A DNA stretch of 43,049 bases from a virus, in IMG/VR virus record IMGVR_UViG_3300025132_000087, positions 1 to 43,049 of that record; one strand, 5' to 3'. Numbering within the stretch: position 1 is the stretch's first letter; each line of letters begins with the position of its first letter. The translations under genes and the position numbers were made by a program. Under the pieces are notes generated by a model that was not told where the DNA came from, ran no database searches, and saw only the letters and a list, made by a program, of their open reading frames with translations. Positions 2,993 through 7,067 of the stretch are shown piece by piece.

Positions 2993-3175
2993 TTATTTGA
3001 AAACTTTTGCATTTTTAAGATCCTGCATTTCGCGGAACCATTCTTGCTGATCCTTCTGGAATTGTTTGGAGTCTTCTATAAACTGGCCGGATACTTCGAC
3101 GGTTCTGTCAACCATCTTATCCCATCCTGCTTCTGCTTTTGCCATCGCTGCCAATGCTTCTTCTGTCGCGGTCAT
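2993..3175 (-). CDS. Small helical protein, paralog 1 of 3
   Basis: 60 residues starting MTATEEALAAMAKAEAGWDKM and continuing VEVSGQFIEDSKQFQKDQQEWF. It is strongly similar to the products of 6261-6452 and 5341-5493. The shared frame is EALxAMxKAEAxWDK, then xVSGQF and a charged helix, which suggests a coiled coil or helical hairpin. No known function. It heads an operon (3175 to 2447) with a leaderless-type promoter at 3182-3209. Confidence 0.7.
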   Translation of the reverse strand: MTATEEALAAMAKAEAGWDKMVDRTVEVSGQFIEDSKQFQKDQQEWFREMQDLKNAKVFK

Positions 3176-3209: not shown

Positions 3210-3263
3210 TACCCAAACACCCTTTTTTTTTCTTTTTTAATACTTTTTTTTTGAAGGAAAAGC

Positions 3264-3291
3264 TTGACTCTCTTCTTGTTTTTATTATAGA
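3264..3291 (+). promoter_or_regulatory. Plus-strand promoter reading into R3
   Basis: TTGACT (3264-3269), a 16-base spacer and TATAGA (3286-3291), followed by AAAA and the R3 hairpins. It points opposite to all neighbouring genes, and no ORF follows it. The expected product is an RNA of about 90 bases covering R3 and ending at its T-tract. Confidence 0.6.
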
Positions 3292-3392
3292 AAAAGCCCC
3301 CGTAACTCACTGATACTCAAGGACTTACGGGGCGGGGCGGGGGGCTTCCCCGCAACCCCTTGAACGCCAAGGGGTTACGAGTATTTTTTTTT
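3291..3392. repeat. R3, copy 3 of the composite palindrome family
   Basis: Left hairpin 3302-3328 (GTAACTC/GACTTAC); right hairpin 3352-3378 with arms changed to AACCCCTTG/CAAGGGGTT. The right arm shows matched changes on both sides of the stem, the clearest compensatory substitution in the family. The core (3329-3351) is G-rich on the plus strand, with runs of 4, 4 and 6 G. The T-tract (3384-3392) abuts the stop codon of the 3391-3645 gene. Confidence 0.9.
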
Positions 3393-4255: not shown

Positions 4256-4311
4256 ATCGCCAGATATATGGGGCCATTGATACTCAGTAAGTCACAGAGA
4301 AACCTAAAAAG

Positions 4312-4411
4312 AAAAAACGCTCTAAGTCACTGATACTCAACGAGTTACGGCCATCGGCCCCGCCCCCGCCCCTAACTCACTTATATTCAACGACTTACAG
4401 AGATTTTTTTA
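4312..4411. repeat. R4, copy 4 of the composite palindrome family
   Basis: Left hairpin about 4322-4348 (TAAGTC/GAGTTA, one mismatch) and right hairpin about 4372-4398 (TAACTC/GACTTA, one mismatch), with a C-rich core on the plus strand (4349-4371). The T-tract at 4404-4410 touches the stop codon of the endolysin gene. The left and right ends are also complementary, including the A- and T-tracts. Confidence 0.88.
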
Positions 4412-5137
4412 TTAAAGTGAATTTTCGTCACGCCACAAAGAAACTTCCCATTTTCTTCGAAGCTCCAAACCTTTTCGGATTTTTCCCGCTGCCATTCTAT
4501 ATTGAGGCATGACCACCTCAACGCTTTTATAGTTTCCATTATTGAGTCTATTCTTTTTTTCACAGACCAATTTGCGTAGTGAGCCTTGACCACAGTTGAA
4601 AGTAAAACTTGTGAGTGATGCCAATTGGTTTTCAGTCAATGGAACTTTTACAATTCTCAACACATGATTTTTTGCGACAAGTAATTCTTCTTCTAACAGT
4701 TTTACTGCTTCGGCTTCTGTGATGGTGTCGCCCCATCTAACATTTTTGGTATGCCCATAGCCGATAGTCATGACTCCACCACTGCAACGATACGCTTTAG
4801 ACTTAAAACTCTCGTAGTGTTTTACTTTAGAAAACATTTTATCCCAAGCAGAGATTTCTTTTTTGATTTCTTTTTTAACCTCTTCGACCTTGTAGGATTT
4901 TTTAGGTCTAACAAGAACAGGAACTAGATCCTCTTTTTTGTCTCTCTTATAAAAACGCTTTGGCTTAACAAGCACAGGTGCATTCCATGTTTTGATTATC
5001 TCGGGGGCAACCTGCTTCTGCGTTTCAACAGTCGTCGGGATAACCTTTACTTGTTTTTCTTTATTGTTCACTTTGCCAGTCGCCTGAAAGACGTAAACTG
5101 ACAAAGCGAGCAGTGAGATGATTAGGAGTATTTTCAT
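4412..5137 (-). CDS. Endolysin, GH24 lysozyme with N-terminal signal-anchor
   Basis: This 241-residue protein should cleave the beta-1,4 MurNAc-GlcNAc bond of peptidoglycan. Residues 1-19 (MKILLIISLLALSVYVFQA) form a signal peptide or signal-anchor-release segment. Residues 20-95 are a basic linker with two PVLVxPKxxYK repeats. Residues about 97-241 are the lysozyme domain with the E-x8-C-x5-T active-site pattern (E109, C118, T124). Cysteine replaces the usual aspartate, a variation tolerated in T4 lysozyme and seen in natural relatives. I start at the methionine one base after the upstream stop (TAA-A-ATG). It is the last gene of the 5493-4412 operon, and R4 follows directly. No holin is obvious, although the signal-anchor would allow Sec-dependent export. 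Confidence 0.88.
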   Translation of the reverse strand: MKILLIISLLALSVYVFQATGKVNNKEKQVKVIPTTVETQKQVAPEIIKTWNAPVLVKPKRFYKRDKKEDLVPVLVRPKKSYKVEEVKKEIKKEISAWDKMFSKVKHYESFKSKAYRCSGGVMTIGYGHTKNVRWGDTITEAEAVKLLEEELLVAKNHVLRIVKVPLTENQLASLTSFTFNCGQGSLRKLVCEKKNRLNNGNYKSVEVVMPQYRMAAGKIRKGLELRRKWEVSLWRDENSL

Positions 5138-5340: not shown

Positions 5341-5493
5341 TTATTTTAATTCTTCCAATTCAACTTTTAACTCTTGGCACTCTTTCTGGAATTGGCCCGA
5401 GACCTCGGTGGTCTCCTTTGCCAATTTGTCCCATCCTGCTTCGGCCTTAGCCATAGCTTCTAATGCTTCCTGTGATTCTTTTGATAAGTTCAT
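5341..5493 (-). CDS. Small helical protein, paralog 2 of 3
   Basis: 50 residues starting MNLSKESQEALEAMAKAEAG and ending in an EL-rich charged helix. It matches the 2993-3175 and 6261-6452 products over EAL-AMAKAEAGWDKL and VSGQF. I start at the ATG at 5493; the frame stays open to 5586 but would run through the tRNA-like element. The transcript probably begins near 5638, so a leader of about 145 bases containing that element precedes the ATG. Confidence 0.65.
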   Translation of the reverse strand: MNLSKESQEALEAMAKAEAGWDKLAKETTEVSGQFQKECQELKVELEELK

Positions 5494-5513
5494 AATGTCA
5501 GTGTTTGGAAAAT

Positions 5514-5629
5514 TGGCGGCTCTAAAAGGACTTGCACCTTTATCTTTCTCGCCCGAACCATTGGGGTTGCGGTGACTTCGGTGCACCGAGAGGTCGTGGA
5601 GATTGTCTTACTTGTTAGACTATAGAGCT
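5514..5629 (-). ncRNA. tRNA-like RNA with an extended anticodon limb
   Basis: Read on the minus strand: a seven-base acceptor strand (5623-5629), T and A, then a D-like arm (GTCT, eight-base loop, AGAC). A 62-base limb follows that can fold as nested stems (ATCT/AGAT, TCTCG/CGAGA, CCGAA/TTCGG), then a five-bp T-arm with loop TGCAAGT. The other acceptor strand (5518-5524), G73 and an encoded CCA (5514-5516) complete it. It is not a normal tRNA: the D-loop lacks GG, T55 is G, the first acceptor pair is A-C, and there is no five-plus-seven anticodon arm. It may be a degenerate tRNA or a specialised tRNA-like leader. Confidence 0.4.
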
Positions 5630-5741: not shown

Positions 5742-5769
5742 TTGACTTTCCTCTTGTTTACTATAAAGA
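5742..5769 (+). promoter_or_regulatory. Plus-strand promoter reading into R5
   Basis: TTGACT (5742-5747), then TAAAGA after 16 bases (5764-5769) or TATAAA after 14 (5762-5767). Aligned with the R3 promoter, the -35 and much of the spacer (CTCTTGTTT) are conserved. No ORF follows, only R5. Confidence 0.5.
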
Positions 5770-5870
5770 AAAATTCTTCGTAACTCCTTGATACTAAGCG
5801 ACTTACGGGGCGGGGCTGGGGGCTTTCCCGTAACTCGTTGTCGCTCAGTGAGTTAGAGCGATTTTTTTCT
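5768..5870. repeat. R5, copy 5 of the composite palindrome family
   Basis: Left hairpin 5780-5806 and right hairpin 5830-5856 (GTAACTC/GAGTTAG), with a G-rich core on the plus strand (5807-5829) and T-tract 5862-5868. It lies between the two tRNA-like RNAs, downstream of the one at 5905-5970 on the minus strand, and could terminate that transcript. Confidence 0.9.
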
Positions 5871-5904
5871 TAGCATAAGAACGGGGCTTGTCAAGTATTT
5901 TTTT

Positions 5905-5970
5905 TGGTGGATGGCGGGGGGATCGAACCCCCATCCAAGACTCGCGTCCTGTCGAAACCATTAGCCACCC
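5905..5970 (-). ncRNA. tmRNA tRNA-like domain without the tag-coding region
   Basis: Read on the minus strand: acceptor GGGTGGC (5970-5964), TAATGG, TTTCGAC, and a five-bp stem AGGAC/GTCTT closed by the GNRA tetraloop GCGA. Then GGAT, T-arm GGGGG-TTCGATC-CCCCC, acceptor GCCATCC, A73 and encoded CCA. The stemless D-region with GG-T-TTCGAC-AGG at this distance from the acceptor is the signature of tmRNA (ssrA), not of tRNAs. The third acceptor pair is G-U with A73, the identity set for alanyl-tRNA synthetase. The long P2 helix, pseudoknots and tag ORF are replaced by one tetraloop. The first ten bases overlap the stop of the 5961-6218 gene, so it is probably processed from the 3' end of that mRNA. 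Truncated mitochondrial tmRNAs of jakobids are a known parallel. Confidence 0.75.
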
Positions 5971-6218
5971 ATCGTGTAGAATTTTTTCAGAGCAAGGTCT
6001 CCCACCACGAGGAGAACCGCGCCCACGGTGGTTGGTATAAACATGACAGCGAGAAAGTCGAGGCCATCCCACCCGTGCAGAACGCTAGCGAAAAGTTCGG
6101 GGCCAGCACCGATTAGAACAACGGCGCAGATGACTGCGAGGTTAAAGGATACGACTATCATCATGCTCATTAGAAAGCGGTCGATGAAGTGATTGATGGT
6201 GGAGAATATTTTTTTCAT
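5961..6218 (-). CDS. Small two-helix membrane protein
   Basis: An 85-residue protein with hydrophobic segments at about 16-38 (MSMMIVVSFNLAVICAVVLIG) and 53-73 (DFLAVMFIPTTVGAVLLVVGD). It has a positively charged start (MKKIFST) and ends LKKFYTMGG. Both termini are predicted cytoplasmic. It lies in an operon after 6261-6452, and its last three codons plus stop form the 5' acceptor strand of the tmRNA-like RNA. Processing of that RNA would cut the mRNA inside the final codons. Holin-like topology is possible but unproven. Confidence 0.6.
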   Translation of the reverse strand: MKKIFSTINHFIDRFLMSMMIVVSFNLAVICAVVLIGAGPELFASVLHGWDGLDFLAVMFIPTTVGAVLLVVGDLALKKFYTMGG

Positions 6219-6260: not shown

Positions 6261-6452
6261 TTAGGCTAGGAATCTAGGATCTTGCTCTGGTTGATTAGGA
6301 ACATTTTCAAGGAACCATTCCTTTTGTTCTTTTTGGAATTTTTTGCAGTCTTCCACAAACTGGCCAGAAACCGCGACGGTCTCCTCTGCCAATTTGTCCC
6401 ATGCTGCTTCTGCTTTCTTCATTGCTGCTAGTGCTTCTTCGGTTGCTGTCAT
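6261..6452 (-). CDS. Small helical protein, paralog 3 of 3
   Basis: 63 residues starting MTATEEALAAMKKAEAAWDK, then VAVSGQFVEDCKKFQKEQKEWF and a proline-containing tail. It is closest to the 2993-3175 product. It heads the operon that includes the small membrane protein and the tmRNA-like RNA. The sister paralog at 5341-5493 likewise shares a transcript with a tRNA-like RNA, a coincidence worth noting. Confidence 0.7.
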   Translation of the reverse strand: MTATEEALAAMKKAEAAWDKLAEETVAVSGQFVEDCKKFQKEQKEWFLENVPNQPEQDPRFLA

Positions 6453-6894: not shown

Positions 6895-6922
6895 TTGCCA
6901 TGCCTCGGGATTCTGCTATAGA
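6895..6922 (+). promoter_or_regulatory. Plus-strand promoter reading into R6
   Basis: TTGCCA (6895-6900), a 16-base spacer and TATAGA (6917-6922), followed by AAAAA and R6. The -10 and spacing are the same as in front of R3. Confidence 0.6.
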
Positions 6923-7021
6923 AAAAACGTTGTAAGTCCTTGATACTCAACGAGTTAGGAGCCACGGCCCCGCCCCCGCCCGTAACTCCTTGATACTCAG
7001 TGAGTTACGAGGATTTTTTTA
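6921..7021. repeat. R6, copy 6 of the composite palindrome family
   Basis: Left hairpin 6932-6958 (GTAAGTC/GAGTTAG) and right hairpin 6982-7008 (GTAACTC/GAGTTAC, inner TTGA/TCAG), C-rich core on the plus strand (6959-6981), T-tract 7014-7020. A separate terminator (7068-7093) already ends the minus-strand gene to its right, so R6 is not needed for that role. Confidence 0.9.
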
Positions 7022-7067
7022 TTAACTGTTTTCTCGTGGATGTCAACACAAAAGATGAATTTAATTC

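Follow-up and report, generated by a model that had tools for sequence, protein, structure and literature searches.

The mycobacteriophage DS6A encodes an RNA that consists only of the tRNA-like domain (TLD) of transfer-messenger RNA (tmRNA) (tmID 11587; PMC4131195, PMC11915505). According to Mao et al. (2009) as cited in PMC4131195, and to PMC11915505, a TLD-like RNA strongly inhibits tmRNA in E. coli in chargeable and non-chargeable form alike, perhaps through titration of SmpB. Here, we report a 66-nt RNA of the TLD-only kind encoded on the minus strand at 5905..5970 of the IMG/VR record IMGVR_UViG_3300025132_000087, a linear and possibly incomplete virus contig of 43,049 bp, which was analysed at its full length and is called the window below. 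Related RNAs with covarying stems and near-invariant alanine identity signals were found in many other viral sequences, and we consider that they may act as decoys of host tmRNA.

Several features of the TLD have been established in bacterial systems. SmpB binds the TLD and replaces its missing anticodon arm (PMC3929946), and a truncated tmRNA is loaded on the ribosome with SmpB and EF-Tu (PMC8363625). SmpB contacts U17, G19, and A334, and in E. coli A334 is part of the pocket of SmpB Trp122 (PMC8363625). A 2025 database of 97,179 tmRNAs contains nine entries classified as 'standard, no CDS' (coding sequence) and 72 classified as 'permuted, no CDS', and tag-less mitochondrial tmRNAs persist alongside SmpB (PMC11915505).

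Like the DS6A RNA, whose kind is reported to inhibit E. coli tmRNA, the window RNA is a continuous TLD-only phage RNA with no CDS. However, it comes from an unrelated 43-kb marine virus and is part of a lineage that has its own covarying, tetraloop-capped stem; the comparison was made with the published description of the DS6A RNA. The one-piece tmRNA (RF00023) shares with it the acceptor with G3-U70, A73, and CCA, the stemless UUCGAC D region, the GGA linker, the T-arm, and the start of P2, whereas the window RNA has no tag frame, resume codon, or pseudoknots and measures 66 nt instead of about 350 nt. The mitochondrial tmRNAs without an mRNA domain (jakobids and oomycetes; RF02544) have likewise kept the TLD and lost the tag, but they are usually permuted two-piece genes, unlike the single continuous phage gene described here. 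The CDS-less plastid tmRNAs of Mallomonadaceae, of about 65 bp (PMC11915505), match it in size and tag loss; these are organellar, however, and only two sequences are known. The phage RNA also resembles the design of the Thermus thermophilus TLD crystallised with SmpB (PDB 2CZJ; PMC3929946), in which 25 nt of the 5' end and 34 nt of the 3' end were joined by a UUCG loop, although that RNA is an artificial construct.

A sequence-only reading of the window had recognised the TLD and knew of no phage counterpart. The latter statement was wrong, since the DS6A RNA has been published (PMC4131195, PMC11915505) and many more such RNAs appeared in our scans. What appears to be new is that RNAs of this kind, known from one phage, DS6A, and from organelles, make up a class that is widespread in phages, covaries, and comes in two architectures. 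The literature searched, which mostly excluded subscription papers, yielded no description of a widespread phage class.

Structure of the window RNA

The complete minus-strand RNA, read from 5970 to 5905, is GGGUGGCUAAUGGUUUCGACAGGACGCGAGUCUUGGAUGGGGGUUCGAUCCCCCCGCCAUCCACCA, with the mature 5' end (G1) at 5970 and the CCA-3' end at 5905. In an Rfam cmscan, a match to RF00023 spanned the whole of 5905-5970 with 49.5 bits (gathering score 47, E 1.1e-16). The alignment ran end to end through model positions 1-374, with 312 interior positions absent and a GCGA tetraloop in their place.

The 5' strand of the acceptor, GGGUGGC (5964..5970; G3 at 5968), forms seven of seven pairs with 5909-5915. The 3' strand, GCCAUCC, is followed by A73 and CCA (5905..5915), with U70 at 5911, A73 at 5908, and the encoded CCA at 5905-5907. 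Next to the 5' strand lies the stemless D region, UGGUUUCGAC (UAAUGGUUUCGAC at 5951..5963 in the RF00023 alignment), with the tmRNA signature GGNUUCGAC. A short P2 stem, AGGAC-GCGA-GUCUU (5937..5950), capped by a GNRA tetraloop, stands where the full P2, the pseudoknots, and the tag reading frame would be; energy folding added a sixth pair, C20-G35, giving a stem of 5-6 bp with the GCGA loop. The T-arm is then preceded by a GGA of the tmRNA type, as part of the linker GGAU (5933..5936), which the RF00023 alignment equates with the GGAC of tmRNA. The distance from UUCGAC to GGA is only 14 nt. The T-arm itself, GGGGG-UUCGAUC-CCCCC (5916..5932), has 5 bp in both the RF00023 alignment and the energy fold. 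By our own count, the counterparts of U17 and A334 (E. coli numbering) are present, position 15 being U, and the A of the GGAU linker would be the equivalent of A334.

ARAGORN called neither a tRNA nor a tmRNA for this RNA and indicated no D stem or anticodon arm of a tRNA. There was no tag reading frame with resume codon and stop, as expected from the 312 missing model positions, and neither the pseudoknots PK1-PK4 nor the long P2 was found. RF02544 and RF00005 were absent from the Rfam match list, in which overlapping matches of related families or clans were collapsed to the best one. The stability of the energy fold was modestly unusual (z -2.1); the case for the RNA is therefore based on the covariance-model match and the relatives described below rather than on the fold alone.

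These results indicate that the RNA is the TLD of a tmRNA without an mRNA domain, fitting the anatomical description of the TLD-only phage form, and that it is not a tmRNA in the full sense, lacking both tag and pseudoknots. The sequence-only reading was thus borne out in its main claim and in its anatomy, namely the acceptor, G3-U70, A73, CCA, the stemless D region, the T-arm, and the five-bp GCGA stem. Both a tmRNA-model match and conserved copies in relatives were found, and the claim stands. That reading had also raised the permuted alternative, with the tag domain encoded elsewhere. A split or permuted tmRNA was rejected, as no second piece, and indeed no other tmRNA, permuted tmRNA, or tRNA match, was detected at E <= 0.5 anywhere in the 43-kb record, which may itself be a fragment. 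The RF00023 score and the covariation, together with the UUCGAC and GGA signatures, led us to reject a chance likeness to a tRNA T-arm.

Covariation among relatives of the window virus

A search with the terminase yielded 80 loci of related viruses. In three of these (L122, L124, and L137), the small-gene cluster likewise contains this RNA, encoded on the same strand. The acceptor GGGUAGC was found in the more distant relatives L115, L243, and L278, as well as in L084, L095, and L208. The RNAs of L122, L124, L137, L115, L278, L084, L095, and L208 were taken as relatives of the window RNA. In an alignment of nine sequences of this lineage, 96.6% of the cells were paired, and four pairs showed changes on both sides, three of them among the five pairs of the P2 stem. 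The covariation score was reached by none of 500 shuffles, and pairing fell to 50-63% when the partner was shifted by 1-3 columns. Acceptor pair 5-68 alternated between G-C and A-U, while G3-U70 was constant in all nine.

The sequence-only reading had considered the G-U pair, the GNRA closure, and the CCA to be selected rather than decayed. Its core was upheld, as the stems covary and G3-U70 and A73 are near-invariant; however, GNRA closure is not a property of the whole class, and the encoded CCA is optional elsewhere. The opposite view, that deletion or integration left behind part of a full tmRNA gene or of an attachment site, which is now decaying, has some basis in the fact that tmRNA genes are common integration sites (PMC11915505). 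Nevertheless, both ends have been retained and show covariation, sizes fall within a narrow class, and the identity positions are kept in 65 of 66 RNAs among the matches listed. Attachment sites would retain only the tmRNA 3' end. We regard the remnant explanation as highly improbable and, judging from the covariation, largely refuted. An attP derived from tmRNA was likewise rejected, because the 5' and 3' halves are complete and no integrase was present among the window proteins scanned (part of the open reading frames (ORFs)).

A wider class of TLD-only RNAs in viral sequences

IMG/VR was scanned for a strict pattern of UUCGAC, a gap of 6-36, GGA, a T-arm, and UCCACCA. The first scans fixed CCA, or U70, A73, and CCA, by design and were kept out of the identity statistics. 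Later scans left the acceptor and CCA free but fixed UUCGAC, GGA, and the T-loop; accordingly, outside the relatives found by terminase, conservation of UUCGAC, GGA, and the SmpB-contact bases is partly a matter of construction and was not counted as evidence. Most RNA-bearing contigs are metagenome fragments, and the whole analysis is sequence-based.

The strict pattern gave 102 stretches with a gap of 6-36 and eight with a gap of 37-67, few of which appeared real. The RNAs thus occupy a narrow range of sizes instead of a continuum of deletions. When the acceptor and CCA were freed, more than 120 matches were obtained. At least 143 distinct sequences in at least 182 loci passed the structural filters, and by shared protein similarity these loci formed at least 37 groups, a figure that compares the fetched stretches only and is an indication rather than a count of lineages. 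A tRNA lay within 1.5 kb in 35 of the 182 loci.

Two architectures were distinguished. In the short one, to which the window RNA belongs, the stem is capped by GCGA, GCAA, UUCG, CUCG, CUAG, or other loops. The commoner long one, of about 80 nt, has an internal hairpin, UAARRCC...GGNA, in the stem, and the encoded CCA is often missing. Seventy sequences of the long form showed strong covariation in P2 and the T-stem, with both-sided changes in 44/70 at one P2 pair and 49/70 at one T-stem pair.

In the alignment of these 70 sequences (A2; e.g. L338 48-128), the hairpin UAARRCC-NNNN-GGNA stands above the P2 stem, with its 5' UAA and 3' A strongly kept. These nucleotides may constitute a specific internal-loop motif or a protein site. 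Intermediate forms with about 50 nt from UUCGAC to GGA were also observed (L418 1456-1541 and L417 4619-4708, both on the minus strand), possibly tag-less RNAs in which more of the mRNA domain has been left.

Conservation of the alanine identity signals

We then considered the signals for charging with alanine. In the scan blind to the acceptor, G3-U70 was present in 65 and A73 in all of 66 distinct RNAs among the matches listed, while pairs 4-69, 5-68, and 6-67 of the same RNAs took four to six types each. The complete short-gap scan gave 32/33 for G3-U70 and 33/33 for A73. It also contained a built-in control: the 25 matches without a 7-bp acceptor were, as a set, also without the G-U pair and A73. 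These results suggest that alanine identity is under selection across the class.

One outlier, L443 2383-2423 (+), combines a 7-bp acceptor and UUCGAC with C3-G70 where the other RNAs have G3-U70; it is either another kind of tRNA-like RNA or a class member whose identity has changed.

Proposed function

The most likely reading, in which we have slightly better than even confidence, is that the RNA is a phage-encoded, chargeable decoy of tmRNA that would block tagging. It would be transcribed as the last element of an operon of small genes and, by analogy with tmRNA, excised like a tRNA, with a 5' cut by RNase P and trimming to the encoded CCA. Host alanyl-tRNA synthetase would charge it with alanine through G3-U70 and A73, as their near-invariance suggests, and the resulting Ala-RNA could join host SmpB and EF-Tu-GTP in the same complex that loads full tmRNA. 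The TLD alone is described in the literature as sufficient for binding of SmpB and EF-Tu and for ribosome entry. SmpB (PF01668) was encoded by none of 50 viral contigs with the RNA, and hence the RNA presumably uses the host factor; the 50 viral contigs searched contained no full tmRNA either. The RNA would divert SmpB and stalled ribosomes from host tmRNA. It may also take the nascent chain onto its alanine, in which case, there being no resume codon, no degradation tag would be added and rescue by tmRNA would be blocked during infection.

Several points weigh against the decoy. The benefit to a phage of blocking trans-translation is not obvious, and trans-translation aids some phages; lambda imm-P22 falls about 10,000-fold without it (PMC2862035). 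Alanine identity is near-perfectly conserved although the published inhibitor works uncharged, so that more than titration seems to be selected. The RNA is patchy, occurring in only 3/50 contigs with a related terminase, many of which are fragments; it is accessory in the terminase-related viruses. Finally, cultured carriers have the RNA in the company of tRNA genes, a setting that would suit a translation helper no less than an inhibitor.

Two other explanations were considered. In the first, the RNA would be a pure SmpB sponge that only binds SmpB, its aminoacylation being incidental. An uncharged TLD-like RNA also inhibits tmRNA, as reported in PMC4131195, and the SmpB-contact bases U17, G19, and A334 are matched in the window RNA (contacts from PMC8363625). 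However, acceptor pairs 4-6 vary freely while G3-U70 and A73 are fixed, and a sponge would need neither; we consider this explanation unlikely. Because the charging signals are near-perfectly conserved, the alanine seems to matter, and an active role is kept in consideration. In this second explanation, Ala-RNA with host SmpB would go into stalled ribosomes and take the nascent chain, maybe in repeated rounds, and add one or more untemplated alanines to the benefit of the phage, either by relieving stalling or by marking chains without the host tag. It would account for the near-invariance of G3-U70 and A73, for which the published inhibition, needing no charging, gives no reason. In addition, SmpB and a TLD fragment make polyalanine in vitro without mRNA according to Shimizu and Ueda (2006) as cited in PMC3929946, tag-less mitochondrial tmRNAs have been kept with SmpB (PMC11915505), and some carriers have the RNA within tRNA arrays. 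On the other hand, a study by O'Connor, cited in PMC2862035, states in its title that the release of ribosomes requires the tag to be translated to a minimal extent. Since such translation is reportedly needed, the TLD alone may not free ribosomes. Moreover, the sole phage-type RNA tested was reported as an inhibitor. Alanine tailing of this kind is thus possible but rather improbable, and we continue with the chargeable decoy as the preferred reading.

Genomic setting

The window virus is a tailed phage by its terminase and also encodes an endolysin and a PhoH-like protein. Among sequenced phages, the relatives of the terminase are all remote, with less than 60% identity. A blastn search of the RNA region against 50,697 phage records gave no match.

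Directly upstream of the RNA lies a putative membrane-protein ORF of 85 aa (5961..6218, minus strand), for which no PHROG or Pfam family was found. Its stop codon (5961-5963) lies inside the RNA, which suggests co-transcription. The overlap noted in the sequence-only reading is real, at 10 nt, but it is not conserved: in L122, L124, and L137, the RNA starts 6-7 nt past another stop codon, which belongs to a homologue of window ORF 2447-2671. The idea that the RNA acts in cis for the membrane-protein gene was rejected on this ground. Because the upstream gene differs among relatives, the RNA is considered a unit of its own and not a 3' untranslated element of one gene.

A hairpin-rich intergenic module (5768..5873, minus strand) follows directly 3' of the RNA, and a repeat search counted five copies of it across the minus-strand gene cluster. 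Both L122 and L124 have TTGACA-16-TATAAA ahead of this module, a consensus promoter that begins just past the CCA. This arrangement, together with the many short-type copies whose start is no more than about 30 nt from an upstream stop codon, would suit a tRNA-like punctuation element, that is, a site of RNase P cutting or a 3' end that protects the mRNA upstream, as in organelles. Such an element could do without the alanine identity pair and the stemless UUCGAC D region, however. The upstream gene is not constant among relatives, and isolates hold the RNA inside tRNA arrays; punctuation is accordingly a quite improbable function.

Two further features of the cluster were observed. The modules, of about 106 nt, are present at 891-996, 2268-2373, 4310-4415, 5768-5873, and 6920-7025 (and 3247-3390) of the window. 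These five or more copies are 60-81% alike, have GTAACTC/GAGTTAC arms and a G+C-rich centre, and stand at gene junctions of the minus-strand cluster, so that they look like repeated operon-junction elements. The cluster that holds the RNA also contains three paralogous small genes on the minus strand (2993-3175, 5341-5586, and 6261-6452) with the pattern EALAAMAKAEAGWDKL..T..VSGQF; the paralogue at 5341-5586, the only one of the three checked, had no Pfam family.

Cultured phages and other carriers

Among cultured phages, unannotated TLD-only genes were found in or beside the tRNA arrays of the Streptomyces phages Shaeky (L421 2001-2082), LuckySocke (L420 2501-2581), BRock (L423 2501-2581), and pSt2308 (L424 1501-1581), with an RNA ligase near by in LuckySocke and BRock. 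In Stenotrophomonas virus Jojan60 (L422 2001-2083), the RNA is also in or beside a tRNA array and overlaps a small hypothetical gene. The RF00023 scores of the cultured-phage RNAs were 57-64 bits. In the same search, Synechococcus phage S-CAM1 gave a full permuted tmRNA and not a tag-less head. Each of the 50 viral contigs searched for SmpB carried one strong TLD-only match; the further matches in some of them were weak and tRNA-like.

The large tRNA sets and the RNA ligase of some cultured carriers would be consistent with an anti-defence shield, in which the RNA serves as a decoy for, or a resistant form against, host systems that detect or cleave tmRNA or tRNA, for instance those with SmpB-like domains. 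CoCoNuT restriction systems have SmpB-like domains that are predicted to touch tmRNA (PMC11090510). We nevertheless hold this explanation to be very unlikely.

In 84,980 prokaryote genomes, the strict pattern occurred in 45 places, only three of which had a 7-bp acceptor: a Prochlorococcus single-cell viral contig, a prophage-like contig with a terminase, and a cyanobacterial contig. A tag-less tmRNA head was observed at L290 7186-7269 (-) in a 312-kb cyanobacterial contig (FACHB-471). The L290 stretch contains carotenoid-oxygenase-like and KptA-like ORFs and no obvious phage genes, and is a possible cellular case.

Discussion

Trans-translation is near-universal in bacteria, and its manipulation by phages is hardly known. 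Standard annotation overlooks the RNAs described here, which are left between tRNA genes in cultured phages. The class includes phages that are in culture and whose hosts are tractable. The near-perfect conservation of the alanine pair predicts that a change of G3-U70 to G-C would kill the function, and the control of ribosome rescue by phages thereby becomes directly testable.

That a large phage class of small alanyl RNAs adds untemplated alanine to stalled chains with host SmpB is a doubtful proposition. If it were true, tail-and-spare or tail-and-jam would replace the tag-and-degrade of the host, and these RNAs would be active reprogrammers rather than passive decoys. The class may also yield natural small RNA inhibitors of trans-translation.
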